NCBI GenBank assembly: GCA_002189035.1
Contig: NEEC01000009.1
Span: 992,001 to 1,056,000, forward strand
Reading direction: 5' to 3'
Length of the DNA stretch: 64,000 bases
Source of the DNA: Utricularia gibba
Taxonomy: Eukaryota; Streptophyta; Magnoliopsida; Lamiales; Lentibulariaceae
The notes below the pieces were generated by a model. That model saw only the letters and a list, made by a program, of their open reading frames with translations. It was not told the DNA's origin and did no database searches. Positions 5,449-63,073 of the stretch are shown here, piece after piece (within the stretch, counting starts at the first letter, position 1; each line of letters begins with the position of its first letter). Both the position numbers and the translations under genes were made by a program.

Positions 5449-7343
5449 TCATTGTTGGGGAGGAGGATTTACATTCCAATGTCTTAACATCCCTCTCCAG
5501 CTACAATCCCTGTCGATACACACACCGATTCGCTCATCCTTGATCCTGATTCTCCAATGCCCATCGGAGTAATTCGCCTTTTCAGCTTCTCTTCTGTCCC
5601 ATTCAAGCTGCGCTTTCTGTAACGTTTTGAGTAAGCAGAAGCTCTGTAACTCCTTCGTCATCGAATCGTGCATCTTCCACCATCTTCTGTGCGCAGCGTC
5701 GCTGGCGAACTCTCGCAATCTTCCCACGTTCCAGTTGCAGTCGTAGTCCTTGAAACACGCCCATGGCTTGTTTCCCAGTAAATGTAGAACGTAAAGGATT
5801 GGTGGGTCTGCAGAGAACAGCTCAAGTTTCTTCTTTTTCGCTGCGTAGTCGTCTCCTTCCAGAAATGCTTCAGGAAGTTCATGTGTCTCGGTATCCTGTG
5901 CCACCATGTGAATATCTCGTTCAAGTACCCCTGTTTGTGTCACGGTTATTGCTGATCATGGAATCGAGGATCAAACAGAGAAACTATTGTTTTGCACCTG
6001 GTCTCCTCCATTGCTTGAATAAATCTTGTCAACATTGTCCATGAGAAGCTGGAAGGTACAGTTTGATGGCTCTATGACCATCACACCGGAGTTGAAAAAC
6101 GATCCGTCATTTCCGGTTGCGGAGATCTCCGGCATCTGAAACAGAATGTCGATGTTCCTGAGAATTAACATGTCTGAGTCTATGAAAATTATCTTATCAT
6201 AATCTATGAGTTGCCATAGCCTAAACTTGCTGTAGTTCCACTCATTGTACGAGTCTTTCTCAGCATTGGGATTTCTTATTCTTTCTATGGTTCTAACTTG
6301 CCAGCCCGCAGCTTCAAGTCCGCGCCTGTTATGCTCACTGATCGATTCGTCCACCAGAATCACGAGGTCCCTTGTCGAACCAGACATCTTGATGCTCTGT
6401 GCTACAACTATGGCTCCACAGACGTAGGAATAAACTGAATGCAGGATCGTCGCATAGGCCTCACGTTGCTGCTTTACTGCATAAGTCCCTTTGGTTTCTA
6501 GTGCAAGTTCACATGATCCTACAGGGAGAGTAAGCTTCTGTCTCAGTGCACTCAATTCTGGTTTATAGAGCCATGTGTTTCCCTCATGTGCAACAAGATC
6601 TTTGCAAGTGAACAGATCAGGCATCGGAATACATGTTGTCACAAGCAGCAGATGCAAATGGCGGCTTGGTCTGCGTGACACGATCAATTTCGCTGCTGCA
6701 AGTTGTAAGTGTAAACGAGCAACGTCCCTGGACTTGTTCCGGCAGGGAAGCTTCACAGCAATCAAATCAAGCCTTTGTTGTGGAATTACAAGAGATGGAA
6801 AAGAGGGGCACCTTGGAACTTCTTCTGTTTCATGCTCCTCGTCGATCCATTCGGGTACAGCGTCTCCCACGTCACGTTTTCATCTGCGTGTTCGAGATTC
6901 AGCAAGATGTGATTTGCGTTTGGCAGAATATGTTTCCAGTCATGGATCTCACTGCCATTGAAATTCAGAAGACCGATCCCTTTCACATTTGTTTCTAACG
7001 GTAAATTACTTAGAATCTTGGCAGCTTCTTCACTGCTGAAGGAAAAATCTGCTCTGTATCTTGAATCTGTGGCGCCCCCTACGTACCTACTCAGACAAAC
7101 AAATGCATTCAGAGGAAGAATTCCTGCTACTGAAGAGATCACTTGTTATTATACTCACTGAGAAAAGGTCTGGTTTTTCGCAGTTCTTCTACAAGCTGCC
7201 CGAGACGAAAGGATGAAGAGAAAACCGCTGAGGAGAAGTGCAAAGACTACATATTTCAAAGGGTTCCCTTTCCAATTTGTGATCTTCCCTGCAGTTGAGA
7301 ACGTGAGAGGATTCTGGGCATTCTTAGCCTTGATTCTCTGCAT
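5449..7343 (-). CDS. GUX: GUX-like xylan glucuronosyltransferase (GT8), two 1-base deletions
   Basis: A Golgi type II glycosyltransferase of family GT8 that adds glucuronic acid to xylan in cell walls (known for GUX1-5). Exons are 7159-7343, 5998-7089 and 5449-5930. A membrane anchor (YVVFALLLSGFLFIL) lies near residue 31-45. The catalytic part holds DYDKIIFIDSDMLILRN with the DxD metal site, then FFNSGVMVIEPS, GYLNEIFTWWHRIP and a C-terminal WRIRIKD. The frame breaks twice. Near 6851-6855, ETLYP is followed in another frame by EWIDEEHETEEVP. Near 5857-5862, NFLKHFW is followed in another frame by EGDDYAAKKKK. Each needs one added base. Total exon length (1759 nt) is short by exactly two, and repair gives 586 aa, a normal GUX length. 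No other damage is seen, so sequence error is likelier than a pseudogene. Confidence 0.85.
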
Positions 7344-8517
7344 CCTTCTTCTGTAAATATCACCTCTGTTGAAGCCAGAATGTCAAACTGTGCACGAACC
7401 ATAGAAATCTCTAACTCGCAGGGAATACTCACTCACATTCTCTGTCTTCCATCCATGGATTTTTGCATCACGCAATCAGAGAACAGGAGGAGCACAAGAA
7501 CTTCGCAGCGCATCATCGTCTCTTTAAGGCATTGTGCCAAAAGGATGGTAAGCAACCAACATGAGAAACTCATTTGAAGATCACAATGCATCATCCCAAA
7601 AGGAATGATATCTGCACTTGCCAAACCTGTGCCCAACATTTACAGCAAAATTCGTTTACTCCAACTCCGGTTTAGTGCCTCTCTTGATGGAATTCACTCG
7701 TTTTCTTTATAAAGCTTTAGTCTTTAATTGTGGGTCGAATATTATATATTCTAATATATCTTTGGTGGATTCATAGGTCAATAAAAGATTTTCAGGATTC
7801 AAGATACGTGACATTTTCAAAGGGGGAAACTCAGAATAAATAGTGGGAGGAAAGAAAAGAAACCTGAAACTTCTTGGAAAGAGTTTATCATACAATTCTT
7901 TTCAGGAAAAAAAGGCGTCTCTTTCTACCCCTCTGAAGCGTCCAGAATCCAGGAAAACTAACGGGGAGGCGGCGGGGTGTGGTGGCGAGCTTAGACGAAA
8001 GGCTACTTCGTTCAAAACTGAACTGGTAACTGTTGGGTTGCAGCCTGCAGGGAGTTTTGGTCACAAAAATTGTAATTTTAATGTATTAAATATCAAAGAG
8101 ATATTTTTTGTTGTGCAGGGGGCGAGAATGAGGTTGGAACCTCCAAAGAATGGATTCATGGCTGTGGCCTTCCCAACGAATTCAATCTTCGTCCATTCTT
8201 CTACCTTCTATTGAATTCTCACCTGCAGTTGAGCAGCGGATACGACAATTGACTTGGGTTTTAACGTAAGACTATCCAAACCTGGTTGATTGCGTGGCAT
8301 TGCATCCTACCCAGCTCTTTTTTCTGCTTTTGGTTCTTGGCTGGAGTTTCGAGTTTCTTCCTCTTTTATCATGTTTTAGTTTTTTGTGGGTTCAGGAGTT
8401 TGTTTCAAAGCTGACTATCCCGCATACTCAAAGCTGTTGATTTGGGGGAATCAAGGTGGGCTCAAGGGCTTTCTGTAAGATCGGGTTGTTCTTCGACGAG
8501 TTTGAAACCCTGGAAGT
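7344..8517. other. Divergent promoter region, GUX (-) and ATG13 (+)
   Basis: Start codons are 1.17 kb apart. The ATG13 5' leader probably contains an untranslated exon and intron. An open frame at 7843-8214 has no similarity I recognise and runs across what is probably leader sequence. Confidence 0.5.
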
Positions 8518-10388
8518 ATGTTGTCTATTACTCAATCGGAACCTGCGAAGATGGAACAGATAATCACTGAGTTTTTCGCTAAAAGTCTTCACATAATACT
8601 GGAATCTCGCTGCCCTTATGTCTCATCGCGCAATTACAGCGGCGATCAACATATTCACGGTCCATCTCCGTCCCGCTCGCTGTTGTCCACGCCGAGTTGT
8701 AAGCCCAGGGATAAATGGTTCAATCTGGCCTTGAGGGATTGCCCAGCAGCTTTGGAAAATATTGATTTTTGGAGGCAGGCTCATCTTGAACCTATGATAG
8801 TTGATGTGATTTTGGTGCTTGCTTCCCCTAAAAGAGGGCTTGCTCAGAATTCTTGTGGTGCTGATAATGATGAACTGTGTGATCCGAAGAATGTGAAGAT
8901 CATCGAGAGATGGGTATTACAATACGAGAACAAGCGGAACTCTGGAAATGTAGGTGGTTCTTCTGGGTGTAAAAGATCATGTTCTCCCAGTTCTCAGACG
9001 TTTTATAAGAAGTCAATACTGCTGTTAAGATCCTTGTATGCAACTCTTCGACTTTTGCCTGCTTATAGGTTGTTTCGTGATCTTGTTTCATCTGCCAAGA
9101 TCCAGTTTTATAATCTTTGCCACCGGATTTCGACATTTGTTGAGCCATTTACTCGTGGAGAAGAAGCAGACATGAGAAGATTTGTGTTCACTCCTCTTGA
9201 AACTTCATGTGGCAGGCTTTGCCTTTCAGTCCAATACAAATCATCTGTTTTGGATGTAAATTCTGAGCCTTCAACTCCTATATCGTCACAGCTCATTCCA
9301 GAATATGTTGGCAGTCCTTTAGCAGAGCCACTGAAAAGGTTTCCATCTCTTCCTACCTCAAGCAGCCCCTCACGTCCATCCCCGTTTCACAGACGCCATA
9401 GTTGGAGCTTTGACTTGTATTGTGCATCATCACCTTTGTCTTCATCACCATCATCGAGACAGATTTGCGATCGTTCTTCTGTATCTCCATTTCCATCTAC
9501 ATCTTCCTCACCCTTCACTCCTCCATCCGATAAGCTACACCGTACTCCATCAAAGACTAATCCTCCAAGTCCATCACAGCGATTGCCACCATCAGGCCTT
9601 CATGAACCCAACTCCCCAAATGACGAGGTAGCCCTGGTTCATTTTGTAGTGCATTGAAGAGTATTTATCTCTTACACCTTCCTCACTGCAGTTCTCAAAT
9701 TCCGGAAAGGGTGATAAGTTGGTGGACTGTAAGCAGCCTTCTAGAAGTGCTTCTAGACTATCCCCTTACAATGAGCAAGCTGAATCTGCCTTCTCTGGAG
9801 CGTTTATCGTAGATGACGATGATCTGATGGAGCCAAACATACGGTATATATACAAATGTCAAGACTTCATTTTTAATTCTCCGGCTTCAAACCTATGTGG
9901 TTCTTGAACATATTTTATGTGTTTTCTGTTCCACATTCTCTTCTGCTACATGTATTAGCAGAAGCACTCTACTCTTCTTTAAACAAATGCATTTGAACTC
10001 TATGAAGGGATTGAAAGCCCCTGTTATGCAATATTGGTGTTAGTTTCTGTCCATATGTGATCTGGGAATGGGGTATTTGATGCTTACATGTCTTCCATTA
10101 CGCTGCCTGCATAGATCTATTACACCACAAGGCCAGGTTGAAACGGTAGCCAAGAAATCACGAGATGCTGCAGTTGGTGCTCTGGTTCATATGCTGAAGA
10201 AAGCACCTCCTCTCTCCAGAGCCCACACCACCGGTGTGCCAAGCCCTGAACTGCAGAAGTCCCCAACTCCCCAGCAACCATCTGCTTCATCAACTGGGAA
10301 AACTATAGCAGATGCACTGCGCGAGCTCCTGGAGTATTCCAGGATGAAGGAACAGATTTTGGAGCAAAGTAAAGCTTCTGAGGCGTAG
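8518..10388 (+). CDS. ATG13: Autophagy-related protein 13
   Basis: Regulatory subunit of the ATG1-ATG13 kinase complex that starts autophagosome formation in the cytosol. Three exons (8518-9627, 9692-9843, 10115-10388) encode 511 aa without breaks. The N-terminal HORMA domain (about residues 10-245) begins MEQIITEFFAKSLHIILESR and contains DKWFNLALRDCPAALENIDFW and FYKKSILLLRSLYATLRLLP. A long Ser/Pro-rich disordered stretch follows, the region controlled by TOR phosphorylation in known ATG13 proteins. The tail has the acidic patch FIVDDDDLMEPNI and the conserved block VGALVHMLKKAPPL, then a helical end. Plants usually have ATG13a and ATG13b; I cannot say which this is. Confidence 0.93.
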
Positions 10389-16904: not shown

Positions 16905-17732
16905 TCATTGGCTCCAGTTTGATGCTGTGGCCATGCCGGCATTCATGAGCAAGTTTGCAACCTTCATTGCCCCTGCATTGGACCCTAATACTCCCTTTTG
17001 ATATCCATCATCTTCCTTTGCGTTTATGATCGCCGGTGCAGTCTCACTGTTTCTCCCGTCGATGGAGTTGTTCTTTTGCTCGTTGCATCCCTTCTTGAAG
17101 GCCCGGCAAACCACCCAACCTTCTTCCTGCAATATGATCTTCATTCACTTCTTGATAGCGACATGGAAAGTTTGTGGATGCTAAGGTCTAGTTTAAGTTT
17201 ACTTGCCGGTGTCTGTGATGAAGCATTGCCACGAGATTGAAGTCTATACTCGTGCATGATCCACTCTGTTTTCTTTCCATTAGGTGCCCTCCCTGTGTAG
17301 AAAACAAGTGTTTTCCTCATCCCAATCAAGCTCCTTTTGTCATAAACTTCCTTGTCTCTTCCTGTGGCCTTCCAGAACCCAGTGATGGTGGCCCGATTCG
17401 TCCTCCTCCCTGTGGGACACTTTCTGCACTTGTAGTTGAAGAAGAACCACTCATGTTGCCTCTCGAGTCCAATAGCGCACTTATCTAGCAACATTGTATG
17501 CTGGTGTTTGAGCATTTGGATATGGCATATGACTACAGTTTAGAGCCAGTACCTTGAAGTTCCCATGGCTCCACTGTATAAAGATCAACCTCCCTGATAA
17601 CATCTAGATCGATCTTCTGGGAGCTCACCTTCTTCCTCAAATAATATCCCACGAGCTCTACATCTGTGGGATGAAACCGAAAACCGGGGGTACACCAGAT
17701 GCCCTGGTTTCTAGTGTTTGCAAGGGATCCAT
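16905..17732 (-). CDS. NAC-domain transcription factor, VND-like, with frame break(s)
   Basis: The NAC subdomains are clear: [20 protein letters not shown] (A), [15 protein letters not shown] (B), [20 protein letters not shown] (C), [19 protein letters not shown] and IMHEYRL (D), and [12 protein letters not shown] (E). The VGYYLRKKV...SQKIDLDVI wording resembles the VND/NST group, which controls secondary wall and vessel formation (known). Exon 1 is 17553-17732, exon 2 is about 17203-17484, exon 3 about 16905-17126. The ATG at 17732 gives [16 protein letters not shown], but the NAC frame after it is shifted by one base at a run of five Gs (17686-17690); one missing base restores PPGFRFHP. The exon 2/exon 3 phases also do not match. 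The tail after subdomain E is short (about 65 residues). Either there are sequence errors or this copy is decaying. Confidence 0.75.
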
Positions 17733-20826: not shown

Positions 20827-20877
20827 TCAGTACAACCATCTTCGAAATCCCATTACCTGTTATTTTGGTTTTATTCT

Positions 20878-21790
20878 GTGGAACGCGCAAACCTGGCGGC
20901 GATTAACGACGACGGCGGCGGTGGAAAATCCGGGGCCGGATCAGTACTCTGCCGTCAGACGAGCACGAGGTGGACGCCCACGGCAGAGCAGATACGGATT
21001 CTCAAAGATCTTTATTACAACAATGGCGTGCGGTCACCGACGGCGGAGCAGATTCAGAGGATCTCAGCTAAGCTCCGGCAATACGGGAAGATCGAAGGTA
21101 AAAACGTCTTCTACTGGTTTCAGAACCACAAGGCTCGTGAGCGCCAGAAGAAACGCTTCACTTCCGTACTCCCTCATCCTCCTCATCCCCCGCATCCATC
21201 CCCCGATCAGCATCTCACCGTCGCCGCAAAGTTCAGCACACCCATTTCACCTTCAGGTTTAACCCCATTTTACAGTACCGCTCATCAACACAGAGCATCA
21301 TTGTTTGGTCTCAATTCCTTCACCCTTTCTACTTATAGGTGGATTTGGAGGTCCCTTGGCCATGGAGATGAAGTTTAGAGTAAGTATTCATCAACTCTCC
21401 AGAACTGCTAACTGATAATAAAAAAAAAAAAAAAAAAAAACAGACAACGTGATCCTCATTATTATATACATTCAGTGCATGTTCTTACTGTTGTACGTGA
21501 TAGGAGTTCGCTGTTACTCCCGGAAACGGCGGTGGCGTGTGTACTCCACAGAGCTTTGTATTTGACCCCTTTCCTCCGCGTACCATTCTTCTACGTGTGT
21601 AAAGTTTCCGATACGGGACGAAGAACCTGCGGCGAGTGAGTTTGAAACGCTGCCGTTGTTTCCGATCCGGGAAGAAATGGCGACGAAGCTAGGCCGTCAC
21701 GCCCGCGAGGTAAGTGTCGTCAGCGACGGCGCGTCTCTTGAACTCAGTTTGAACTCCTCCTTCCACGACACCGGAAACCGCCATGGCTAA
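20878..21790 (+). CDS. WUS: WUSCHEL homologue (homeodomain, WUS box, EAR motif); no in-frame ATG, one frame break
   Basis: A stem-cell homeodomain factor. Exons 20878-21256, 21339-21379 and 21504-21790 would give about 235 aa. The WOX homeodomain (about residues 28-92) is intact: [58 protein letters not shown]. The last exon carries the WUS box TLPLFP (in [12 protein letters not shown]) and the C-terminal EAR-like ASLELSLNS. Both motifs together point to WUS itself rather than other WOX genes. WUS maintains the shoot meristem and represses genes through TOPLESS-type corepressors (known). Two oddities: the frame has no ATG between an upstream in-frame TAG (20707) and the homeodomain, only GTG-GAA-CGC at 20878. 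Also, the frame shifts by one base between DPFPPR (about 21567-21584) and FPIRDEEP. One missing base fixes the second, consistent with the 707-nt exon sum. Confidence 0.85.
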
Positions 21791-27782: not shown

Positions 27783-28939
27783 TCAACCCGATGGCGAAGC
27801 TACTGCTGGCTCTTCGCCTTTGGAATCGTTCTCACCCTTCACTTCTTCCTCCCCTTCGATCTCATCATCACTATTGTAGACAAACCGAATGTGCTTGCCG
27901 GTGAACTTTGGCCAATCACCTACAGTCATTTTATTCATTCCTTGGCAGAGCTCATTCATCACTTCTTCATCATCCTCCACTTCTTCTTCTTCATGTTCAT
28001 AGTAATCCTCATTCTCTGGCCATTCCATGCATTCGTTTTCGCCATTCTCAGCCATGGCACTTCTTGCATTTTCCTGGATAGACCAAATGAACGAGTTATC
28101 ATCGTCACTGGATGGTTTTTTCCCACTGTTCGTTTTGTCTCCTTGACAAGAAGAGCCTCCTGTGAAATTTGCTTTTTCGGAGAAATCCAGAAGCAAAGAC
28201 CTTGTGATCACATTCTCATCCTCCCCGCCATCATATTTACCCTCAATCATCATCTTAATCAGAAACCAAATCAATATCAAAATAACAAACTGATGATCAA
28301 AAAAGGGAAAAAGAAAACAACTACTGGAGACCAACAAACCTGGGGCGCCAGAATCCTTTCAGCTGCTGGTGTAACAGAAGGCAAATCATCACTACCACAA
28401 GAGAAATCATCCACTTGAGGTGTGTTGACCGGAGTCGGAGCGACAACTGTAATCGGAATCGGAGAGTCGATGCTGTGTCCGTCAACTGTGAAGAGTACCC
28501 TATTTTCAATCGCAACCCTGCGAGGTTCTCCTTCTTCAACCTTCTGCAAAAGAAGACTCTTCACTTGACCTCGCAACAGAGCTTCACCAGATCCAGGCGC
28601 TGATTGAAAAATTGCCTTCTTCTTAGAAGTCAGCGATGATGGAGTTGCCAGACTTCCTATGGCCAACCCAATAATCGGTGAATCATTCGTTATATCAATT
28701 AGGGCAGATCGATCTTGCCGCTGCACTGATTTCGCATTCCCTTTCTCACATTCATCAAGTGTTCCTGCAAGAACAATCAGAAACACTTAAAATAGAAAGA
28801 ATAAAGAAACTATGGATTAAAAGGCGGAACAGGGGGAAACGGCCCATACTCGTCGCCAGAAAAGGTAAACCACCGTTGTTGGGACGGAAGAAAGCACCTG
28901 CGATCTCGTTACTCTTCTAACGAACAACGGAGTTTCCAT
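27783..28939 (-). CDS. Plant-specific acidic protein of unknown function
   Basis: Three exons: 28898-28939 (METPLFVRRVTRSQ), 28340-28764 and 27783-28253. I cannot name the family, but it looks conserved: the middle has SALIDITNDSPIIGLAIGSL, then SGEALLRGQVKSLLLQKVEE, VAPTPVNTPQVDDF and AERILAPQ. The C-terminal third is strongly acidic (YYEHEEEEVEDDEEVMNELC), followed by MTVGDWPKFTGKHIRFVYNS. TPxxTP-like and SP sites suggest phosphorylation. Exon 1 ends in phase 0 but exon 2 needs one extra preceding base to keep the frame; the exon sum (938 nt) is short by one. One missing G at the CAG/gt junction would explain this, so it may be a further case of the window-wide deletions. The repaired length would be 312 aa. 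Confidence 0.65.
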
Positions 28940-29785: not shown

Positions 29786-32278
<2,493 letters not shown>

Positions 32279-32718: not shown

Positions 32719-34643
32719 TCACTTCAAATTTGTTGGTACCCTTATTCCACTGGAATGGTAAAGCTCCATTTTTGTCTTGGCTTCCATCACCAACTTCTCT
32801 GTCTCCTCGACCTGCATCAGAGTAGCTTTCTTAGACGCCCACTCGAGCACCCTGTGTACTTCCGCTTTGGTAAGTTGTTCGCTCTCCGGGACATGAATTG
32901 CAATGTAGGACAGAAGAACCAGCGCAGGGTTCTGCAAGACATGTCCTGAAAAGTAGACATGTTGCACAAGATGCTTTTCCCCTCCAGCAGCAAGGATCGC
33001 TTTTGAGTGTTCGACATGCAGAAAGTTCTCCTTCCAGGCAAACTTTGTGAGTGCGATACACGATTCCTTGGAGATATTTTCCTCTACGCTCTGATCCAAA
33101 AGCTTCACCAATGGCCTTATCATCCTCGTCTCGGTAGACTTGAAAATTCTCGACAAGTTCCCAATGCTCCTTATGCAGGGGATAAGGAGCTGAGAATCCG
33201 CCTTTTGGATCACACTGAGCATTTGATCGACTACAGCTTTGCAGGCAAGGGAGTTGGGTCTGAAAGCTGTTTTTCTGAGCTCAGGGTTCAACTCTGCCAT
33301 TGTTGTGATCTCCATCAAAGCCATAGCAGAATTATATTGAACTTCTTTTGTTCCGTTCTCCATGAGAAAAGCAAAACATAGTAAAGCTCTGGACTCCGTT
33401 ATCCTTTGGCAAATCGGAGGATTTCCCTTTGCCAGCTTCCAAAGTGCCTTTGCAGCCATCGCTTTCATATACGCTTTAGTTTCTGGATCCTCCAATTCCC
33501 TTGCTTTAATGTTAACCCGGGAATGCGAATGCAATGGACTTGGCGGACCATGATGATGATGATGCAAAGGGCTCACCTTCCCACGATTGTTAACACCCTC
33601 CATAGCAATTTTACTTGCCACAACATCATGCATCTGATTAGAATGATTCTTCCCTAAAGGATGACGAATTAAGCTCTTCTCCTCATCCAAATCAACCCCA
33701 CTCATCATATTCTCGTTGTTCGTCTTGCTACTGGCCAAAACGACGGCAGCGTGCATCGAAGTGGCCTTGCTCGCCACCGCGTATTTGCTGTGCTCTGGCA
33801 CAGTCTCGAAAGATAGCTGATTAACAAGCAAGCCTATGATGTTCTGCTGAGCAAAGTGATCCTGGCATTGGGGATAGTGGTCAACAAGCTCCGAGATAGC
33901 CCAGGCTACCTCAGCCTGCACTTTCATACGATCTTCTTTGAGGATCTTGGCAAACACTGAGCAAACTCCGGCAAGAATCATCTGCTCCACGCTTTCAACG
34001 TCTTTCCCAAGCAATCCAATGGCTCGCGCTGCATTCAACTGCCCTTCCAATGTCCCTTCCTTCAACAATTTCAACAACGGCCCAAGTCCGCCTTCCTCGA
34101 CGATCGAGTGCGTGTTACGTTCGTTATCCCGCGCAAGAGCCACCAACGTCTGCGCCACGGTCGCGCGGACGGCCGGCGAGCCTTTTTGCAAAAGCGCGAT
34201 TTGCTGCCAGATCAAGGGAAGCATCGGCTCAGTAAGGGCAATCGGCGGGAGACCGAGGTGCTCGTCGTCGTCGTTTCCCACGCGAAGAGCCAGGAGACAT
34301 CTGCGATGGAGTTCTCTATATGCCCCGTCATCTTCCGGATAGCCGCGGCGGAGATGATTGTAAAGACGCGCTTGACTATTCCATGACCACGGCATTTGAG
34401 CACCAGAGTCAACGAATTCTCCAGAACATTCTGTGTGTCCTCGATGATTCGACGCGCTGGTTGCTCGTAGAGATCGCTGCTGGCACGCGCCGCCTGCCGC
34501 AGCAGCTCCGACAGCTTCTCCGCCGTCCCCTGGAGATCCGCGCAGTCCTGCTTGAACATAGTTGCTTCGGCGGCTGCCTTTATCAACTGGTCCGCCGATT
34601 GAATCGCGGTAGCCAAGATCTGCTTCAACAACAAATCTCCCAT
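32719..34643 (-). CDS. ARO: ARO (armadillo repeat only) protein; one 1-base deletion
   Basis: Intronless armadillo-repeat protein of the ARO1-4 family, which acts with ROP GTPases in polar growth of pollen tubes and root hairs (known). The N-terminus MGDLLLKQILATAIQSADQL, followed by LRQAARASSDLYEQPARRII and IVKRVFTIISAAAIRKM, is typical. Armadillo blocks follow: LGLPPIALTEPMLPLIWQQI, IVEEGGLGPLLKLLKEGTLE, QLNAARAIGLLGKDVESVEQ, MILAGVCSVFAKILKEDRMK. A His-rich linker lies mid-protein. At about 34284-34289 the frame shifts by one base between DVSWL and LRVGNDDDEHLG. One added base gives 641 aa, and the total length 1925 is short by exactly one. The open frame upstream of 34643 in the other frame is an artefact of this break. 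Confidence 0.9.
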
Positions 34644-37649: not shown

Positions 37650-38245
37650 TCAAACTCCCGGAGACTTGACCGGAAATCCGTTGCTCACCCAAGCACTGTA
37701 CCCCCCTTCCATGTCCATCACGTTCTTGAACTCCTGCAGTTCTTCATCCTCTCAGGCTACTACTCCAGATCAATCAATAACACACTTTAAAAAGAATTAC
37801 TCACTGCTTCCACAAGATCAGCAGCCGCTTTCGCAGATCTCGACCCCGCCTGGCAACCCTGGAAACAGTTTTTCAGAATAGAAATCAGACAGCGAGAAAA
37901 GGAAGTTGGGGCTGCCTGCCCCATGGAAGATGGTCGGAAGTTCGCACCACAAGGACGTGATCTTCTTTGGAGAAGACAGCTTGGACCTGGTCTCTGAAGC
38001 TGGATTCTTCTTCGGGCCAAGTGGGGTGAAAAACATGTAAGGGACGTTGACTGCATTCTCCAGATGCCCCTGCCTGAATTCCTCCTCGGTCCTGCGATAA
38101 ACCCCAACTCCATTCCCATTTCTCAGACATTGATGATGATGATGATGATCCAGGAAGAAGCTTACCGTACGTCGAGGTACCGGTAACGGGGCTCCTTGGT
38201 GAGGAGATCTCTGGCTCCTTGAACGTTGATGCGGGCAACCGCCAT
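37650..38245 (-). CDS. Single-domain rhodanese / sulfurtransferase, STR16-like; one 1-base deletion
   Basis: A small thiosulfate sulfurtransferase. Exons 38166-38245, 37948-38091, 37805-37858 and 37650-37733. The rhodanese fold is clear: ARDLLTKEPRYRYLDVRTEE, EFRQGHLENAVNVPYM, the loop VGCQAGSRS with the catalytic Cys, and GGYSAWVSNGFPVKSPGV at the end. At about 37995-38001 the frame shifts by one base: PKKNPA is followed in the next frame by FRDQVQAVFSKEDHVLV. One added base gives 120 aa, the usual size of STR16/STR18-type proteins, and the exon sum (362) is short by one. I use the ATG giving MAVARINVQG. The frame is open further upstream, so a longer form with a plastid presequence is possible. 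Confidence 0.85.
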
Positions 38246-40377: not shown

Positions 40378-41924
40378 ATGCAAGAGATGTGGAAGGCACC
40401 GCAGGAGTCCCGCCCAACCAAGTCTGCCCTTGTTCGCCGGCGAAGCCGATTGGAATCGGGCGGACGCGGTCGGAGGCCTTCCATGTTGCCTACAAGGTCC
40501 CAATCGGGGACACTCCGTATGTCCGGGCGAAGAATGTTCAAGTCTGTTGATCAAATCAATCTTCTCTTCGCCTCTACAATTTGTGTGCCAGGACACTGAT
40601 TTTGTGGTTTTTGTTTGTCGTGCTCAGCTGGTGGAAAAGGATCCTGACAGGGCGATTCCCTTGTTTTGGGCGGCTATTAATGCTGGAGATAGAGTGGATA
40701 GTGCTCTCAAGGACATGGCCATTGTAATGAAGCAGCAAAACAGGGCCGAGGAAGCTATCGAAGCAATCAAATCCCTGCGCTGCCGGTGTTCGGATCAAGC
40801 ACAGGAATCGCTTGACAACATATTGCTAGACCTATACAAGGTGTGTGTTTTATGCATCTGTGTTTCCATGTCTTAATGGCACTGGTTTGCCTTCACTTAC
40901 AATTGCAACTGTATGCTTCTGTAGAGATGTGGAAGACTGGATGATCAAATAGGCTTGCTGAGGCACAAGCTGCATCTGATTCAGCAGGGAATGGCCTTTA
41001 ACGGGAGGCGCACGAAAACGGCACGGTCCCAAGGGAAGAAGTTTCAGGTATCTGTGGAGCAAGAAGCCACCAGATTACTGGTAAGATTTCTAAGAAACAT
41101 GTATAATGCTGAGAAAATTGTGACTTCTGAAGGAAAGATTGAATCTTTGAATTTCTTAGGGGAACTTGGGATGGGCGTTGATGCAACAAAACAATTATAT
41201 TGAAGCAGAAGATGCTTATAGGCGAGCTCTGTTGCTGGCGCCTGATAACAACAAAATGTGCAATCTAGGAATCTGTCTAATGCAGCAGGGAAGATTGGCA
41301 GAGGCCAATGAAACTTTGCGCAGAGTTAAGCCGGCCATGGCGGACGGCCCGAGAGGCAGCGATTCCCATCTTAAGGCCTACGAGAGAGCCCAACAAATGC
41401 TTCGTGATCTTGAATCGGAGAGAATGAATTGCGGTGGGGATCAGGCGGAGCAGAGAAGACTATTCGACGTGCTTCTCAGCACTTCCGCTCTCTGGCAGCC
41501 TCAGCCCTGCCGAGATCAGGCCACCGGAGCCGTTTCAATTCCAAAGCCATATGAAGAAGCCTTTGCAGATGAGAATGCAAACTCCAACTTGCAGACAAAC
41601 ACCCTGGAAATGCTGAAAAAGAAGCAGCAAAGTTGTCACACAACAATGAACTCACTCAACATCGATGCACCTCCCTTTTATGTCTCAAAAGGCTCCTCAT
41701 TTGCGGACAGTCTCAAGAGAACAAGGTCAGGAAACACACCAAAATCATCAGCTCCAGAAAACAAGGAAAACTGGGCTGATTTTCTGCCTGACAATAAGGA
41801 TTTTGAGGATGCAATAATAGCAGGGGCGATTCTGGGTACGAAGAAGGAGGAAAACGGAATGATGCCGCAGAAGAAGGTAGACAAGAGGCTCAAAGTATTT
41901 CAAGAGATAACACCACGGGCTTGA
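40378..41924 (+). CDS. TDM1 / POLLENLESS3-like TPR protein; one 1-base deletion
   Basis: A TPR protein of the MS5/TDM1/POLLENLESS3 family; TDM1 is needed for exit from meiosis in Arabidopsis (known). Exons 40378-40541, 40628-40840, 40925-41080, 41160-41924. It begins MQEMWKAPQESRPTKSA. At the C run near 40428-40432 the frame shifts by one base; one added C continues as PCSPAKPIGIGRTRSEAFHV, then YKVPIGDTPYVRAKNVQ. The exon sum (1298) is short by one; repaired length 432 aa. Conserved TPR part: LVEKDPDRAIPLFWAAINAG, SALKDMAIVMKQQNRAEEAI, NLGWALMQQNNYIEAEDAYR, NKMCNLGICLMQQGRLAEAN. The C-terminal half is low complexity and ends ADFLPDNKDFEDAIIAGAIL then RLKVFQEITPRA. It may be a POLLENLESS3-LIKE paralogue rather than TDM1 itself. 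Confidence 0.88.
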
Positions 41925-43762
<1,838 letters not shown>

Positions 43763-44218: not shown

Positions 44219-47200
44219 ATGGCGGGACGACGCCGGGATGATGACAGAGAAGGAAGAGATGAAGCGTCGCCGGTGTACAATGTGGTCTTCGTTGACACTA
44301 GCCTCGATACTCACCTTGCTATGCCCGTATCGGGCTCTGATACCTTATCGCAATTCAAAGGCGTGTCTTCCGTATCTTTTGTTATTGGATTTCTGAAAAA
44401 TGTTAAATTCTCAGGAATTCTGACTTTTTATGCGGTTATGGTGATTGCTATATTTTTTTTTATGCAGAAAGGATGGAGGTGGAGCACATGAACTGTTTTC
44501 CAGAAATTGGGAAGATACATATCAATTCCTTGAAGGTGACAGATTGTGAACTTTTTTATGTTGGGTTCACGATTTCGTGCTGATTTATTGTTTATGATCT
44601 TTCTAGATCAAATATGGAGGAAACTTTTATCATATTCCAGATTCTTTGGTTGTCTCGAGTTTGTTTGTCGGGGAAAGGGAAGCTTGGTCTCTTTCAGCTG
44701 ATGTTTCCAAGGATTCAACTCTTCTCTTATGTCAGTTTCCTTCGAATGTGGATATCAAAGATGATGCAGTTACAGTTTCGAAAAATGTAATTGATTGTGC
44801 AGAAACTTTGCCCTCGAACATGAATATTAGGCCAGGTGTCTCTTTATCTCTGCCTGGTGCTGATAATGTAAACAATATAGTTGCATCTGTAATTGCTGAG
44901 GTTGAGGCTGATCTGGTTCAAAATCGTAATGATGAAATGGATGCTCCGAAAACATCCACCGACCTGAGTACTGAAAAGGAAACGGTTTCTGGCGTAATTG
45001 CTAGACTTGAGGGTGAGAAATCTCCAGAGAACGCTGTAGGCTCACCCAGCAGTGCGTTTTCCGATGGAAATTCTTTGGAAAGAAAATCTCGGAGAAGAAA
45101 GAAGAGGAAAGTATGCCCTGAGGAATATGCAAGCCAGAATACAATTTTAGAAGATAGTAGCCACATATTAGATGAATCCACCAAGGATTCATCTAATCTT
45201 AAGATTGTTAACAGCAAGGATTCAACAACTGATGCTGCAAAGGAAGGGCTCAGATGTCTGTTCAACTCGGATCATCAAGCTGATCCTAGTCAATTTAAGG
45301 TAATTACCAAAGACTCAGGTTTTAGCACCTCTCAATATGTTATTGAGAAATGCGGTGAGGTTTTTGATGGAGGACTCTCTCCGACAATGGCAAAAAAGAG
45401 TACGCCTGAGGACTCTCAAAGCACTCTTGTGGGAGATGAAATAGGAAACCAACATGTCAGGTTTGATCGTTCTTTATGTCTTGAAGAGTCTGTGCTAGAG
45501 GAAAGTTTTGATGGGAAAAAGAATGAGAAAAGGAAAAGGACAAAGAAGGTTGTGCATGCTGCTACAGAAATACTTGAAACAGCATCTCCGAATCTCGACA
45601 ATATTGAAAATATGAAGCTGCCCTCTGACACACAAAATGATGGTGAAAAATCTGTACAGGAGGAAGGCCTCGATGTGGAAAACAGTGAGAAAGGGAAAAT
45701 GAGAAAAGATGTGAATACTGCTACAGAAACGTTTGATGCAACATTGAGGAACCTTGAAAAAACTGAAAGAGTAAAGCTGCCCTGCGAAATTCAAACTGCT
45801 GGTGAAGGTTCTGTACGAGAGGAAAATTTGGATCAGAAGAAAATCGAGAAAAGGAAAAAGAAAAAGAGAGATGTGAATTCTGCTACAGAAATACTTGATA
45901 CTACATCAAAAAACCTTGAAAAAACTGAACGTATGAAGCTGGCCCCTGAAACCGGAAATGTAGGTGAAGAGTCTGTGCGAGAGGTGAATTGTGATGGGAA
46001 AAAGAACGAAAAAAGAAAAAAGAGAAAAAGAGATATGGATACTTCTATGAACCATGGAAAATCTGAATCTATGAACCTGATCTCTGAAGCTCAAAATGTA
46101 GATGAAGCAAAGGATGTTTTGTCCATGAAACGTTGCTCTGAATTACTGATGGAATCCTCAAACTGCAAGTCATCTGAGCTTGCTGGTTTAGATTTGATCC
46201 AGAAAGAAACAAGCATCGTGCCACCATCTTCCTCCGATCCAAATCCCATAATGGAGCCTAAGACTTCCGATGGTATCAAAAAGAAGAAGAAGAGGAAGAA
46301 CCGTAATGAGGCTACTATGGAGAAGTCAGGTGTGGATCAGTCTGATAAACTGTCCCCTGATATATGGCCCGCAATAGTGAACAATGAATGCAGCGACTTT
46401 TGCAATGATGGAGTTGATTCCCAGCTGAAATTGGATTCATCTATGCATTCTAATGAGAAGATGCCGGATGCCAATGGAGATGGTTTCAACACTGTGCCCT
46501 TGAATCAAAAACCTCAGCAAGTCAGCAATGTCGTCAGTGGGAAGGGGAATGTGGAAGAAATTACTAAAGAAAGCCAAGAAGAACCTGCTTCGGAAAGAGA
46601 ACTTCAGGGCAAGGAGTTGAATGAGCTGAAGGTGAATTTGGAAGCTGAGGATGAGAAGTCCAAAAAGAGAAAAAAGAAGTCATCAAGATCCAGCTTGGCA
46701 GGCCTGAAAGATACACTACAAGTCGAAGATCCAGAATTTGATAATAAGGCGTCATCAAAGAAAGGTGTGCGTGATTTCACACAGTCAGAACAAGTGAGTG
46801 ACTCTGCTAGACCTCTGCTTCTTTCACAGAGAAGTAATGAAGCCCTTGGAGAGAACCAGATGACTCGTATCAATACCAGTGATATTGAAACAGCCAAAAA
46901 CGAAGGCGAAAAAATTGATTTCCACGAATACTTTGGATCTGCGAAAAAAACTGGTAAAGATGAAATCGTATCCGAAGAATGTCAGTCAAATGAGGGGAAT
47001 CGGGCTCCCAAAGCACGGGGGCGTAGCAAGATTCCTTCTTTATCTTCTTCTAGAAAACAAACGAGTGCATCCATTGATAAATCAAGTGCTTGCAATTCAG
47101 AGACATCGCATAAGAAGAGAAGGAACATCACGAGTTCACGTCCAGCTCAGGGTGCTGTGGCAAAAAAGGCAGTGACAAAAACTTTGCCAATAAAACTAGG

Positions 47201-47663
47201 CTCGGTTTTTGAAACTGATAGCGATCGCAGTTACGAAGATGAGAAGGGGAAAGTTCATTCAGGTCACAGCACCAATAGTCCATCAAGTAGTTCTTCTGAG
47301 TCCATCCATACCAAGGGTGAAAGTGAACTGAACCTCAATTCAGCTAGAAATGGTATGCTGTAGCTGTACTTTCTATTCATTTAGAAGTTGACCTCCAGTT
47401 TGCATTATGTATAACTACGTCTTCTTGACCTCATCTCAGGAACCAGCAAAGCGACTCCAAACTTACTGTAAGTCTCTCACTGATGAGCTTGTATGTTTTC
47501 TTCATTGAAAATCTTGGTGTTATTACTAATACCTGTGCCTTGGAGCAGTGATTCGGGATCCAAGGGCATGACAATGGGCATGATCCTTAGGAACTCACAG
47601 ATTTTCAAACAAGCACTGAATCGAGCCTCATCCCAAGACGAAATCGAGCCTACAGACAGCTGA
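44219..47663 (+). CDS. Large lysine-rich, probably nucleolar protein of unknown function
   Basis: Five exons (44219-44360, 44468-44535, 44607-47352, 47440-47467, 47549-47663) encode 1032 aa with matching phases. Intron 1 begins with GC (AAAG|GCGTGT). The only folded-looking part is at the N-terminus: SPVYNVVFVDTSLDTHLAMP, the EHMNCFPEIGKIHINSLKIK block and NFYHIPDSLVVSSLFVGERE. The remaining about 900 residues are disordered and rich in Lys, Glu and Ser, with many basic clusters (KRKKRKRD, KKKKRKNRN, KSKKRKKKS) that would act as nuclear or nucleolar signals. A stretch of about 53-aa repeats is described separately. I do not recognise the family. The upstream site II cluster would fit a nucleolar role (inference). 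Confidence 0.75.
45480..46060 (+). repeat. In-frame repeats of about 53 codons in the lysine-rich protein
   Basis: Three full units and partial edge units, each about 159-162 bp. A unit contains an ATEILETASPNLDNIE-like segment, a KLPSDTQNDGEKSV-like segment and a basic KKNEKRKKRKRD-like block. Copies differ at roughly half of positions, so the array is old. Confidence 0.75.
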
Positions 47664-48045: not shown

Positions 48046-50083
48046 CTAACTGCTGCTTTGTGCATTGCACTGCTTGGCCTCTTTCTGTGCATCAAACCGA
48101 GCAGGTTCGCATCTTGCTGCGTATCCGAATTTTAGGGTGTTGTATTTTCTATGAACTCCTGTAAGTTTTCCTGTTTCTGCCTTCTCATGAAATTCAACCA
48201 TCTCCCTTGAACACTCTCTGTCCAGTGAAAAGATTGTTATGTAAAATTCGAATCTCCCACTTCATTTAACACCAAGTACTCACCGTAACTCTTCTTCTGA
48301 GTAGCCTGTGTGCCATTCACAGGTCTTGCTCCATTGCCCTACTCCATATAACGTCAACTGTGCGGTGTAAACAGCAGCAGCAGCAAGGAATGAAGGTGAG
48401 TGCTTGAGCATTTCATACTCCACCAGGCAAAGCTCAATCAGGAAGAAAGCCAGATGCTCAAGCTACATGCATAGAATACCAAGTTAAGTTCTTTATCTGT
48501 TTAGTAGTAAATAATTCATGAAGTCAATCGAGTAGTGGTATTCTTCCCCAACCTTTCGATCGGATTGTGCAGCCTTGAGGAAGCGTCTCATGAACACATA
48601 TGGAGTTGGAACAGACATATTGAATTGCAGGGTGTTCAGCATCAGTTTCTCCTGTGGTGTAAAGCAGCACAATTTAGATTAATAGCTGTTGCTTGAACTT
48701 TAACCATGTTAATTTCTTACCATTTCAAGGACCTCCTTCCTTGTATATGCCTTATCTGAAATGAAGATCAGATCAGCAACCACAGGGACAGAAACTTCCT
48801 CGTACTTGCAAGCTAAGAGCATAGCCACAAGGCCAACAAGCTGCAACTTCTTTCTAGCAACCGATTGGGTAGCTAAAAACCGATCTATCAGGTTTACTGT
48901 CAGGAACAGTGTCTCTTCTCGAAGTTCAAATTTATGGTGAACCTCAACCAGCCAGTCGATGAGAATGGCTCGCATTCTCTCATTGATGTCGAATTGATTT
49001 ACCATATATACAGAAGAAACGCAGCTGGAGCTCTGCAACAAGCAACAATGGCTGCTCTCTCAGTACACTGCACTTTGCTTATCATCTTCCAACTGAGATG
49101 CATCAAAACCAGTATGATTAAGCTGGGATTGTTGTAATGTACCTCTATTTTCTTGTAATGTGCATATAAATCTTCTATGTAGTCTACAACGGCAAGTGGA
49201 TCCTTGCAGTCCTCGCCCTTGCATCCTCGCCATCATGTCCACGATTGTCTCTTCAAATATGTCATCCATTTCAACCTCCTCCTACAAAAGTGTCATTTTG
49301 TTACTTGAATACACATTCGAACAACGAGATTCTGTATGAATACGAGAAGGGCGCTCACTGTTTGGCTCGTTTCTGCTCTTGCAACCTCGGGACGCTCCAG
49401 AGACATGGGCTCAGCTTCAGTTAGAGGAATGTCCTCCCACACTGTGAGCTTATTTGCACCAGTCCTTGCCTTCTTTGCTTCCTGCTAAGCTCAGGGTTGT
49501 CATTTTCGTTATACTGAACTTTCAATTCAACTTCACAAGGAAGCAGATGCTACCTCAGGGTAATTTTGCTGTGGAAACCCCAACTGTACAGCGCACTTCC
49601 TGGGAAATTTTGAGAAAAATACATGAAGCTAGAATCCAACGAACCTACAAGAAGTAACAAAATTACTGCAATCTGACCTCGTGACGGGTCTGTTTTCTGC
49701 CAAACTTGCATTTTCCCTGGAGAAAATTCAAACAGGAAACGACAATTCATTTTCAGCGAAACAACAAACATGACAAAATTTTAGCTCGAAGATCTTTAGA
49801 TTTGTACTCTGCCAGTCCTCTCTTGTTAACAGCACCACAGAAATGAGCACCAGGAGCTTCTCCAAGATCGCGATTAATAACACTTAAAGGTCTTCTCTTC
49901 GGCCAAACCTCTACACCAAACTTCCTCCCCGTCATCGCCCCGTCTGCCATTTTCCCATAACCAAGAGTTAAAAGGAGCAAACACCCAATACAGAAAACCA
50001 ATGCAGCTACCTGTGGGTGGTCTAATCAAAAGATTATTCTTATTCTCATCAGAAACAGCAATCTCTTCTGCTTTTCTCAGCAT
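48046..50083 (-). CDS. CYCB2: B2-type mitotic cyclin; two 1-base deletions
   Basis: Regulatory subunit of cyclin-dependent kinases at G2/M. Ten exons: 50011-50083, 49808-49943, 49678-49716, 49554-49599, 49359-49481, 49143-49281, 48721-49032, 48553-48651, 48284-48462, 48046-48217. The cyclin N domain has [40 protein letters not shown] and [20 protein letters not shown]. The C domain has [40 protein letters not shown] and [26 protein letters not shown] (rather than HYKFEL) and the [11 protein letters not shown] wording fit B2 cyclins. In exon 6 two single-base gaps, near 49233-49236 and 49211-49213, must be filled to read [20 protein letters not shown]. The exon sum (1318) is short by exactly two; repaired length 439 aa. 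Upstream AACGG motifs are listed separately. Confidence 0.92.
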
Positions 50084-50275: not shown

Positions 50276-50297
50276 TGGCTGTCGCTTCCCAACTCTA

Positions 50298-51613: not shown

Positions 51614-51999
51614 ATGACCCGGAAGAAGATGCGGCACGGAGAAGGATCCGGGAAGCAGGCGAAGCCCGGATCCGGCAAGGGTGGTGAACATACAAAATGC
51701 GTTGTCTGCGGAAAAGGGTTTGCTTCTGAGAAAGCTTTGTTTGGGCACATGCGATCCCACCCGGGAAGAGGATGGAGGGGCGCTTACCCTCCCCCTCTTT
51801 CCGTGCTAGCGAGGAGTTCGCCGATGTTCGGGCTCTCCAGCAAGCCAATGCAACCGCCGCCTCCGCCGCCGCCCCACACCAGGACGCCTCCGCAGCATCT
51901 TTACTGGAACCTGGCCCCCGCCACCGTGGACGCAAGCCCCCTGAGAACAGCCGTACCCTTCCCGACCTCAACCGCTCGCCGCCATCGGATGATGAATAA
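51614..51999 (+). CDS. C2H2 zinc-finger protein with DLN-type end; one likely 1-base deletion, N-terminus unresolved
   Basis: One clear C2H2 finger, CVVCGKGFASEKALFGHMRS, is followed by HPGRGWRG, the wording of plant ZAT-like fingers in which QALGGH is replaced by KALFGH. The frame then shifts by one base in the run near 51786-51796: after RGWRGAY the conserved continuation SPSFRASEEFADVRALQQAN lies in the next frame. It ends TLPDLNRSPPSDDE, a DLN/EAR-like repression motif. The 386-nt length is short by one. The ATG at 51614 (MTRKKMRHGEG) is a possible start, but an upstream ATG at 51268 (MDSGNGEPGGG) opens a GC-rich region in which all three frames are long and Pro/Gly/Ala-rich. The real protein may begin there with further breaks. 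Function unknown; probable repressor. Confidence 0.6.
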
Positions 52000-55529: not shown

Positions 55530-56151
55530 GAGCAATCGATTTGAAAGCTTGTCAGGATCTGGGCGTTCTCTTTCTTACATGGGAACGCAGAAGCGAAATA
55601 ACGGAACAGGGAAAAAGCGTACGGTTTTCAGCATTTCATGGGCACATTTGTAGGAGTAACGTGTGTCGTCGCAAAAATGTAAGCTTTCCATTCCACCACA
55701 CCCCGGACACGGGGACACTCCTTGACGTCCTTTAGATTGGAACATCTAACTAATTCGTCCCTAATTTCACTCTCTGTTATCAGGTAAACGTTATTACCAG
55801 CTCTGGAAGAGTTGTTGACAATATCAGAGAGAAGCCGTGAACGAGTATTCTCCTTTCGAAAGGTAAAAAGTTCAACTTGGCGATTGCTTTTAATTGATAA
55901 TTACAGGTGTCAACATCTCGCCGGCGTGTTCCGATAGTTACATGCTGCCACCGGAGACACCCCCGCCGGGTTTTGTTTCTTTCCCTCTCTCAATTGGGGT
56001 TTCAACCGACAGTTAGCAGAGGAAACCATAGTTTGTTTCTCCAAATGGAGGCAATCAATCAGGGGAAAAGTTCTCCATTGATGGGGCTCTTGGATCATTA
56101 TCGTTGAGCCAAAATAGAAAGAAAACAAAAGAATCAGCTTCAGTCAACCAG
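55530..56151. other. PP2C promoter / SRPK 3' flank
   Basis: About 620 bp, no gene seen. Confidence 0.5.
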
Positions 56152-58565: not shown

Positions 58566-60509
58566 ATGGAGTTGGTTTCGGCTGATCGGGTGGTGGGGGA
58601 GGTGATGAGGATATACCGGTCGCTGCCGGCGCGGCCGGGAGTCGAGGAAGTGGAAACTGCGAAGGCGTTGATCCGGAATTTCGAGAAGGAGGAAGAGATG
58701 AGAATCGAGGGGATTGAGAGGATGAGAAAGGCGACGGCTGTTCCGGAGGAGTTGTTCATGGTTTTGCAGGAGATGCAGAAAACGATGGTTCGGTTTCAGA
58801 TAAAGGAGCGGAAGCTGGAACCTCGGAAGGTGCTGGATCTCGAGGACGTCCACCTTGTGTTCGACGATTTGATTCAGAGAGCTTCTGGGTGTTTTCCCGG
58901 GATTTCGCCGGAGTCCACTTTGACGTCAGAGAGCTCAACCTTCAGTTTCAGTTCAACAACGACTACCCCTTTCTCCTCTTCTTCAACCGTGGCGACCACC
59001 CAGTCCACATCCTCGAGGTTATACAGTGAAAAGGAGCCGCCCGTCAGGGCTTCAGAGTCTCCGTTCAGCAAAGATGACACTTTCGTGAAGAAGGCAAAGG
59101 CTTCGTTTCATGTGAACGGAAGAGGATCTGCAGACTTCGGCGCTGTGCAGCAGACTGATCTTCAGGTCACCCCTTCAGGTAAGTCACTTCCCTGCCATTA
59201 CAAAATGCATGACTGTGAGATGTGATGCACAGCTTAGCTTGACGGGGGAAGTTTTGCTGGTCATAGGTGAGGATCAGGAGAAACTGAGTTTCTTTAAACT
59301 AGCAAGTGTGATTGAAGTTGGTGCAAAGAAGAGAAGTGAAGAGCTTGTCCTGAAAGGGAGGCTAACAGATCAAGTAGAATGGCTTCCTGATTCTGTGGGG
59401 AAGCTCACAAGTGTGATCCTTTTGGACCTGTCGGAAAACAGAATTGTAGTGCTGCCGGAGACCATAGGCGGGCTTTCCTCATTGAAAGTGCTGGATCTAC
59501 ATGGAAATAGGATCAGTGAGCTACCAGACTCCATTGGGAACTTGCTCAGTTTGCTGAATCTTGACTTGGGAGGAAACCTGTTGAAATCACTGCCACCTGC
59601 GATTGGTGGCTTGGTTAATCTTCAGGAGCTGGATGTGAGCTCAAATGGGATTTCTCACCTTCCAGAGACAATAGGATCGCTTGTCTCGCTAAAGAAACTG
59701 AACATTTCAACAAATGACATCGAGGAGATCCCTCACACAATCGGTAAATGTACTTGGCTCAAGGAGCTTCGAGCAGACTATAACCGGCTGAAAGCACTCC
59801 CTGAAGCAGTCGGACGAATAGCAACACTGGAGATACTTACAGTGCGTTACAACAACATCAGACAGCTGCCCACAACAGTGGCATCCATGTCAAGCTTAAA
59901 AGAGCTGAACGTCAGTTTCAATGAGCTTGAATCTGTCCCTGAGAGCCTGTGTCTTGTCACAACAATAGAAAGATTGAACGTTAGCAACAACTTTGCTGAC
60001 TTGTCATCACTGCCTAGATCCATTGGGAACCTGGAAAGGCTAGAGGAGCTGGATATGAGCAACAACCAGATAAGAGTCCTCCCGGACTCCTTCAGATTGT
60101 TGACACGTCTGCGTGTCCTCAAGCTTGAGGGGAATCCTCTGGAACTACCACCAGGAGATGTGATTGTGAAAGGACCTCAGGTAAGGATTCATCATTTATC
60201 AATCATCACCACAACTGCCCGTTTGAAATCAAATGTTGAGTTCTGATAAACTTCTTTTCTACAGGCAATTGTTGAATACATGGCTGGTGGTGCTGCAAAG
60301 AGAGATGCAAGTCTGAGGCTGTCAAACAGAAGAGCCCCTGGGCAAACCTTTGCTTTTTTTCCAAATCCAACAAAAGGAAACGCAGTGGTAAGTACGCAGG
60401 CTACTATAATCGACCCAGCATTTCAATCATTGGTTTCGTACCGTCGCCAAGGATAAGAAGCTGAGCCTAATGTGCATGCCTTGTTCTCTTCACAGGAATT
60501 GAGCGGTAG
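58566..60509 (+). CDS. PIRL: Plant intracellular Ras-group-related LRR protein (PIRL); one 1-base deletion
   Basis: A cytosolic leucine-rich-repeat protein related to animal Ras-binding SUR-8/SHOC2. Exons 58566-59178, 59267-60180, 60265-60387, 60496-60509. The N-terminal 150 residues are helical (VVGEVMRIYRSLPARPGVEE, VPEELFMVLQEMQKTM); a Ser/Thr-rich linker follows. About ten LRRs then run with the PIRL pattern LxxLxLSxNxLxxLPxxIG: LDLSENRIVVLPETIGGLSS, LDLHGNRISELPDSIGNLLS, LNISTNDIEEIPHTIGKCTW, LKLEGNPLELPPGDVI. Near 60306-60311 the frame shifts by one base: AKRDA must be followed by KSEAVKQKSPWANLCFFSK, then SNKRKRSG, the family tail. One added A restores this and gives 554 aa; the exon sum (1664) is short by one. 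The wording fits the PIRL4/5 group. Confidence 0.9.
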
Positions 60510-61371
60510 CTTTTGCTGGGAATCAGAAGCCTTATTGCTTACATGGGCACATGGGGAGATCCTTCTCAGTTTCAACAATGCTTTTTTTCTTTTTTGTTTC
60601 CATTTGCAGCTTGTGTTTCACCACCCTGCAGCTCGGTTTCTACCCTTTTCCTGTTTGTTCAGCTTAAAGGTTATGAATAACTTAAAACAGTTACCTGGAA
60701 ACTTCGCAGCAGCTACTTCATGAACCCCCAAAAAAGGTTTGTTCCCTATTCATTTCGATATCCGATGCTCTTTGCGAATGATCTAATATTTCATCGCTGG
60801 GGGGTTCAAGAATAGAGGGCAATTACGGTGCAGCAATTTTCTTTAGACGCCACGTACAGGAGAGCATAGCCCCTGTAACGCAGATTATTAAGATTACCTG
60901 ATGACGAATACCCTGTAACTATTTGTGGCGCCGATGCATTCACGGTCGCACAAGCAATCAAAAGAAGCGCATCTAGCACAATCACTTGGATTGAGGATAC
61001 TACCGCATGGGGCAATGAAGGGATGAAACTGGGTCGAAACCACTAGTGTCGGAGAACAAAAACCAACAAGGGAGTGCCAGAAACCTCGACACAGAAACAA
61101 CATCATCAAGCCATATAGATCGTAGCCCATAATTCTCGAGTTAATATCTGACTGGAAGTAAATTCTCAAAAACATTCACCAGGCATAAAGTAACAAACAA
61201 AAGGGATAAGATGAAGTGACAAACTTACTACTGAAGTTCTAGGGCATCAAAAGATCCAGGGATCCAGTTTTACGCATTGGTCCACTTACAATCACTTGTT
61301 AGGCGCAGGACAGGGCACAAAAATTCTCAAAACTACAGCTCAATACAGCAATAGAAGTAGCGCATCCAAGC
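60510..61371. other. Convergent spacer
   Basis: About 860 bp of 3' flanking sequence of the PIRL and RSZ genes. Open frames here are short and unconvincing. Confidence 0.5.
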
Positions 61372-63073
61372 TCAACTCTGGCTCCTGCTCCTGCGCTTTT
61401 CACTAGCTCCATTCCTAAAAGGTTAGCATAGCCATTAGAAGATAACAATAATTTAAATATATAAGTTTAAACAGAAATTCGTTTTCAAATGTATTTGCTC
61501 AACAAAACACTACAGTAATTGTGGATCTCACCGCAATTCTATAACTTCAAGCAAGCCCTAAAACTAACTCAAACTTGAATCAACTTACAGTTTTGGATAA
61601 GCTTACATGCTATTAACCAAGTTTACAACAAATAGCAAACATCTGATCCACACATCTCAAAAGCAATTAAAAACAAGGTTCATATGCTCAAATGTATTTT
61701 GAGTTCAATCAACTTGAAAAAAAAAGATGGCTTACCCATTGGCATATGGGGCCTCATTACGATTAGGTGATCTACTGTAACTGCGGCCTCTTGGAGATGG
61801 ACTGCGGCCTCTTGGGGATGGACTGCGACCTCTTGGGGAGGGACTGCGGCCTCTTGGGGAGGGACTGCGGCCTCTAGGGGAGGGACTGCGGCCTCTTGGG
61901 GAGGGACTACGGCCTCTTGGGGAGGGACTGCGACCTCTTGGGGAGGACTGCGGCCTCTTGGGAGGGACTGCGGCCTCTTGGGGAGGGACTGCGGCCTCTT
62001 GGGGAGGGACTGCGACCTCTTGGAGAGAGACTGCGACGAGTGGACCTCCCACGCGGACTATAACTTCTGCAGCAGTGACAGAGAGGGAAAGAGTTAAAAA
62101 AATGATCATTCATAGACACCATCATGCATTTCAAAACTTCCTCCAAAGCAGGAAACAACGTTTGAAGACTAGTATATACACTAGTAGTCCTTGAGTATTC
62201 TTATTTTACCTTCGGCTATAACTAGGACTGCGGCGATACTTAGGGGGACTACGACGATATCTAGGAGGGCTGCGACTTCTACGCCTCCCAGAACCTGCAC
62301 GCCTGCACTCACGGGCAAAATGGCCAGGCTCGCCACATTCGTAACACTTCAGATCAGAACCAGAGCGCCCACCACGGCCACTACCACCATGTGACAACTC
62401 AACTCTCCAGCCATTTTTTCCTGTTCAGAACAGAGATATGGCACCATCACAAATATTACTGATAAAATAGCACTTACTCCACCTCCCCCCTCCCCATCCC
62501 AAAAAAAAGGGAAAAAATGGCAAAAATACACAGAAATCTCACCATCAAGTTCCCTTATGGCATCTGTGGCATCCCTTCGATCATCAAAATCAACAAAAGC
62601 ATAACCAGGTGGCCTCCTTGCGACCCACACACTGCATGCAAAACAAAAAGAATAAATTTAAAACACGAAAACCATACTACATCCAGACAACCTAAAAGAA
62701 TAGCATCAACCAAGAAGACGTTCTTAAAGCTACACAATAGTCTCTGGAAAACTCATGTCATAGAAATACTAAACCATAACCAGGTAACCTTCTGGAAACC
62801 CACACACTGCATGCAAAACAACAAGAATAAATTTTAAACAAGAAAACCTCATTAAATCCAGACAACCTAAAAGAATAGCATCAACCAGGAAGACATTCTT
62901 ATAGCTACACAACAGTCTCTGGAGGACTCATGTCACAGAAATAATAAAGCTACACACTCAGGATAACGATCCCTGGTAATTTACCTTCTGATTACTCCAA
63001 AGACGCGAAATTCATCCTCGAGTTCGCGTTCAGTGACTCGCGGATCGAGATTCCCAACATAGACCCTCGACAT
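61372..63073 (-). CDS. RSZ22: RSZ22-type SR splicing factor (9G8-like); two 1-base deletions in the RS repeat
   Basis: A nuclear splicing factor. Exons 62985-63073, 62543-62631, 62210-62420, 61736-62066, 61372-61414. The RRM starts [20 protein letters not shown] and continues [20 protein letters not shown] (RNP1 GYAFVDF). A CCHC zinc knuckle follows ([14 protein letters not shown]), then an RS domain with [20 protein letters not shown], the heptad array (separate entry), and the family ending [21 protein letters not shown]. Units 8 and 9 of the heptad array (61928-61967) are each 20 instead of 21 bp, so the frame drifts by two. Adding one base to each restores the known C-terminus and gives 254 aa; the exon sum (763) is short by exactly two. 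Intron 1 contains a tandem duplication (separate entry). Confidence 0.94.
61781..62030 (-). repeat. 12-unit 21-bp array coding SPSPRGR heptads in RSZ
   Basis: Twelve near-identical units (plus-strand motif CTGCGGCCTCTTGGGGAGGGA), each coding seven residues of the RS domain, sense strand SPSPRGR. Units 1-7 and 10-12 are 21 bp. Units 8 (61928-61947) and 9 (61948-61967) are 20 bp, each lacking one G in a G run. An imperfect thirteenth unit follows. Confidence 0.9.
62596..62955 (-). repeat. Tandem duplication (period 175 bp) of exon 2 start and intron 1 in RSZ
   Basis: Two copies offset by 175 bp. Copy 1 includes the first 30-odd bases of exon 2 and its acceptor (exon start 62631). Copy 2 has the same acceptor at 62806 and a diverged exon start coding [10 protein letters not shown], where the true exon codes [10 protein letters not shown]. 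Similarity runs through the intron part (CCAGACAACCTAAAAGAATA is shared) and ends near 62955. Confidence 0.9.

Follow-up and report, generated by a model that had tools for sequence, protein, structure and literature searches.

The window, a stretch of 64 kb (G000:C505:992001-1056000) in a plant assembly of 100.09 Mb and 516 contigs, carries genes for GUX, NAC, WUS, CPK, ARO, sulfurtransferase, TDM1-like (MS5), cyclin B, C2H2, PIRL and RSZ proteins. It also holds a 918-aa open frame that has no Pfam match (44607-47360, plus strand). The preliminary description had reported 14 frame jumps in this DNA. Translating both strands around each site, we saw every one of the 14 jumps, at the reported position or a few bases from it. 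At each site the conserved protein resumed after a 2-base step instead of a 3-base step, so one base is missing there (or, modulo three, two are extra). One missing base per site, as had been proposed, fits all 14 cases, save that the two cyclin B sites are ambiguous as a pair.

We compared GUX (two sites), NAC, WUS, CPK, ARO, sulfurtransferase and RSZ (two sites) with paralogues, with solved proteins, with a duplicate on contig C402 or with the gene's own repeat. GUX is interrupted between LYP and EWIDEE (6851-6855, minus strand) and again in KHFW..GDD (5857-5862, minus). On contig C412 its paralogue forms one uninterrupted frame of 667 aa, which aligns through both breaks. Using a purpose-written, frameshift-aware protein-to-DNA alignment program, we called 1-nt deletions at 6851 and 5858 relative to this intact paralogue, and the alignment contained no frameshift beyond these two. 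The ARO gene breaks between DVSWL and LRVG (34284-34289, minus); its paralogues on C213 and C409 are unbroken, each matching residues 1-281 in one open frame, and its self match falls into two parts offset by -1. Reading through the NAC break between GVPP and GFRFHP (17686-17690, minus; C5/G2 context) gives a protein that aligns gap-free to NAC structures, and reading through the sulfurtransferase break between KKNP and SFRDQV (37995-38001, minus) gives one whose alignment to 1tq1 continues ungapped over that site. In CPK, EF-hand matches extend over the break between DKDGR and ISLQEF (32153-32157, plus). In RSZ, a 21-nt tandem array serves as an internal ruler: only two units, side by side, measure 20 nt, each one C short, with C4 read as C3 in one (61960-61979, minus) and C3 read as C2 in the other (61940-61959, minus). 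The break in the last exon of WUS, placed within 21566-21600 (plus) and not narrowed further, is a 1-nt deletion relative to the C402 duplicate.

Support for three other sites comes from frame arithmetic and motif continuity. The TDM1-like break lies in a C3 run (40428-40432, plus) and the PIRL break in the C-terminal exon (60306-60311, plus); each gene gives two differently framed self matches, offset by -1 in PIRL. The C2H2 break, read from the frames, falls in CCCTCCCCCTC (51786-51796, plus). The strongest cases are GUX, ARO, NAC, sulfurtransferase, CPK, RSZ and WUS, and the weaker ones TDM1-like, PIRL and C2H2.

The two cyclin B breaks were examined by comparison with the C402 copy, relative to which the stretch in the window is 13 nt longer. 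The first reads AT-GATGG against ATTGATGG (49233-49236, minus) and the second lies in a 15-bp tandem duplication (GGCGAGGA-TGCAAG / GGCGAGGACTGCAAG; 49211-49225, minus). Reading the stretch as ATTGATGG minus T, plus the 15-bp duplication minus C, gives an uninterrupted protein with two deletions. The net difference of +13 is most simply explained by the duplication and two missing bases, although a single +1 event would be formally possible. The duplication itself (49205-49235) stands in a cyclin B exon and is missing from the C402 copy. Beyond the breaks, cyclin B differs from its C402 duplicate with a dN of 0.041 and a dS of 0.521. This shows purifying selection in this one gene and not the relaxed constraint expected of a pseudogene.

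The duplicated segment on C402 (1563284-1588503; L005-L010) is syntenic with 18.3-50.5 kb of the window and contains WUS, a 28-kb gene, the TDM1-like gene, a ROP-type GTPase and cyclin B. This block is consistent with whole-genome duplication. Its TDM1-like copy is decaying, with deletions of about 20 and about 38 bp (C402:1578529-1578992) where the window copy is open. The C402 comparison also supported a fifteenth break that had been suspected at 28898, placing it at about 28882 instead (28880-28898, minus; a 1-nt deletion). Close by, near an exon end at 28835, the window and C402 differ by +1, a difference that is not assignable to either copy. The earlier statement that there are no insertions is thus not absolute.

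We then considered the bases around the breaks, most of which had been described as lying in runs of 2-5 identical bases. For runs of 2 that description is uninformative, but G or C runs of at least 3 bases occur more often than expected, at 6 of 13 window sites against 2.1. A or T runs of 3 or more were found at none of the window sites (2.8 expected). Several of the missing bases (CPK, ARO, PIRL and the cyclin GGA-TGC) do not belong to a run of this length.

Breaks of the same kind were found far from the window. In the coding sequence of 30 UDP-glycosyltransferase (UGT) loci, clean class -1 events numbered 12, or about one every 3.5 kb (two each in L012, L013, L030 and L031; one each in L022, L028, L033 and L037). 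The best alignments of these 30 loci contained no clean class +1 event and no in-frame nonsense codon. This count leaves out events in an inserted stretch at about residues 165-190 (L011, L013, L014, L018, L020, L025, L028 and L035), which we rejected as frame breaks because the insert looks like an intron; two class +1 events (L013 and L020) are among them. It also leaves out L021, which was too diverged. By coordinates, two further UGT pairs and the HSP70 pairs show the same offset, and the P450 and GTP_EFTU tables yielded few usable split pairs. Two HSP70 deletions could be assigned to class -1 at the base level, both inside strongly conserved motifs: the gene on C451 has AAGGGAGTC, one G fewer than PAPRGVPQI requires (expected G4 run), and the gene on C496 is one C short before ACG (expected C4 run). 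Two further HSP70 copies, L071 (C241) and L072 (C304:2235520-2238360), are identical over 2,044 nt, have a common frame break at a G5 run and diverge by substitutions beyond the identical stretch. In view of the later substitutions and the common break, we did not accept them as a redundant contig pair and did not count their break among private errors.

Altogether, 26 of 26 one-base events have the same direction (12 in the window, cyclin B excluded, 12 in UGT loci and 2 in HSP70). The chance of this would be about 3 in 100,000 on the illustrative assumption that two-thirds of natural one-base indels are deletions. Breaks in UGT, HSP70 and P450 loci occur on many contigs, whatever the gene's function. 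The cause of the frame breaks is genome-wide and the window is not special.

Some small contigs are redundant with large ones (C316/C412 and C376/C413; L076-L079), and where these pairs were compared they differ only in homopolymer length. Over 3.0 kb, the sole internal difference between C316 and C412 is GGG versus GGGG, at a site that precedes a start codon and cannot be polarized. Over 341 bp, C376 and C413 show two differences, T9/T8 and G4/G5. The second falls in a P450 exon, which is in frame in C413 (G5) and out of frame in C376 (G4). No substitution was found in the 3.3 kb compared between the redundant pairs. Differences in run length without substitutions point to errors in the length of runs and not to divergence.

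Deletions of this kind also interrupt healthy genes elsewhere in the assembly, and duplicate contigs of one locus do not have them in common. We therefore conclude, with a probability that we put at roughly 93%, that the 14 frame breaks are residual consensus deletions from long reads. The genes themselves would then most likely be functional. The assembly-error interpretation of the preliminary description is supported, on evidence that it did not have, by a genome-wide defect in one direction, by contig differences confined to homopolymers, by the lack of nonsense codons and larger indels in the sampled genes and by the scarcity of slippery heptamers. In the mechanism that we propose, base calling or consensus building would drop one base, usually from what is in truth a G or C run. 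Polishing that draws on the same reads would not restore the base, and intact genes would then appear shifted by -1. The reads are probably of PacBio type and should themselves carry the missing bases. Some observations sit less easily with sequencing error. The break common to the C241 and C304 HSP70 genes indicates that breaks are not always private to a contig, several missing bases lie outside the longer runs, the direction of the cyclin B events varies with the reading of the duplication, and the +1 at 28835 is unpolarized. Single sites could be exceptions.

It is very unlikely, in our judgement, that the genes are truly broken, whether by recent null mutation or as pseudogenes, in a plant that evolves fast and in which they are perhaps dosage-redundant after whole-genome duplication. 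The breaks do stand in the given sequence, several of the genes have paralogues, one break is common to two HSP70 copies and raised substitution rates have been reported in Utricularia (PMC3141634). However, the clean events are all of one size and direction and come without nonsense codons, and neither the clean UGT sample nor the GUX alignment contained the mixed lesions (stops, larger indels or indels in both directions) that were looked for. Purifying selection past the cyclin B breaks, the involvement of core genes such as HSP70 and duplicate contigs that differ in homopolymer length alone also speak against real breakage, and a genuinely decaying copy in the same genome, that of the TDM1-like gene, has deletions of 20 and 38 bp.

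The duplicate contigs could instead be alleles, and some differences could be real homopolymer variants of a heterozygous plant whose broken allele was picked or duplicated by the assembly. Redundant contigs that differ in run length do exist; alleles, however, would be expected to carry some substitutions alongside the length differences, and the window region was not found in a second copy, which leaves this explanation only a slender chance. Programmed -1 ribosomal frameshifting, or base-insertion RNA editing of nuclear transcripts, is scarcely credible as a means of restoring full proteins: the same kind of step would mend all breaks and two sites (WUS and ARO) have slippery-like heptamers nearby, but a search of the 14 window sites found no slippery heptamer at the other 12, the genes share no common function and duplicate contigs of a single locus do not show the same breaks.

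Consensus deletion is an artefact of a known, ordinary kind. In the Quiver-polished PacBio assembly of Enterococcus faecium ATCC 700221 (about 3.2 Mb), Illumina reads revealed 561 single-base homopolymer deletions, about one per 5.7 kb (PMC4888979), compared with 14 in 64 kb, or one per 4.6 kb, in the window. In both cases single-base, homopolymer-associated deletions of similar density outlast polishing with the same reads; in E. faecium they were demonstrated with Illumina data, whereas here they are deduced from homologous genes and from the duplicate contigs, and some sites lack a run of at least 3 bases. An HGAP/Quiver assembly of Plasmodium falciparum contained 25,352 indels against 1,798 substitutions before short-read correction, a ratio of about 14 to 1, and there too the indels created false frameshifts (PMC5964635). 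Most of the P. falciparum errors fell in long homopolymers, in a genome rich in A and T, whereas those described here affect short G/C runs in coding DNA. The published Utricularia gibba assembly was likewise built from PacBio data with HGAP (88x coverage, N50 of 3.4 Mb; PMC5793159). Decaying plant gene duplicates resemble the genes of the window in having broken frames in gene-like sequence. Unlike plant pseudogenes, the sampled genes lack nonsense codons and larger lesions, and constraint persists past the cyclin B breaks.

These results are a warning for users of the assembly, and short-read polishing should remove the errors. Detectable deletions in coding DNA occur about once every 3.5 to 4.6 kb, so that automatic annotation would split or truncate many genes or call them pseudogenes. 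Gene loss would then be overestimated in a genome noted for its small size.
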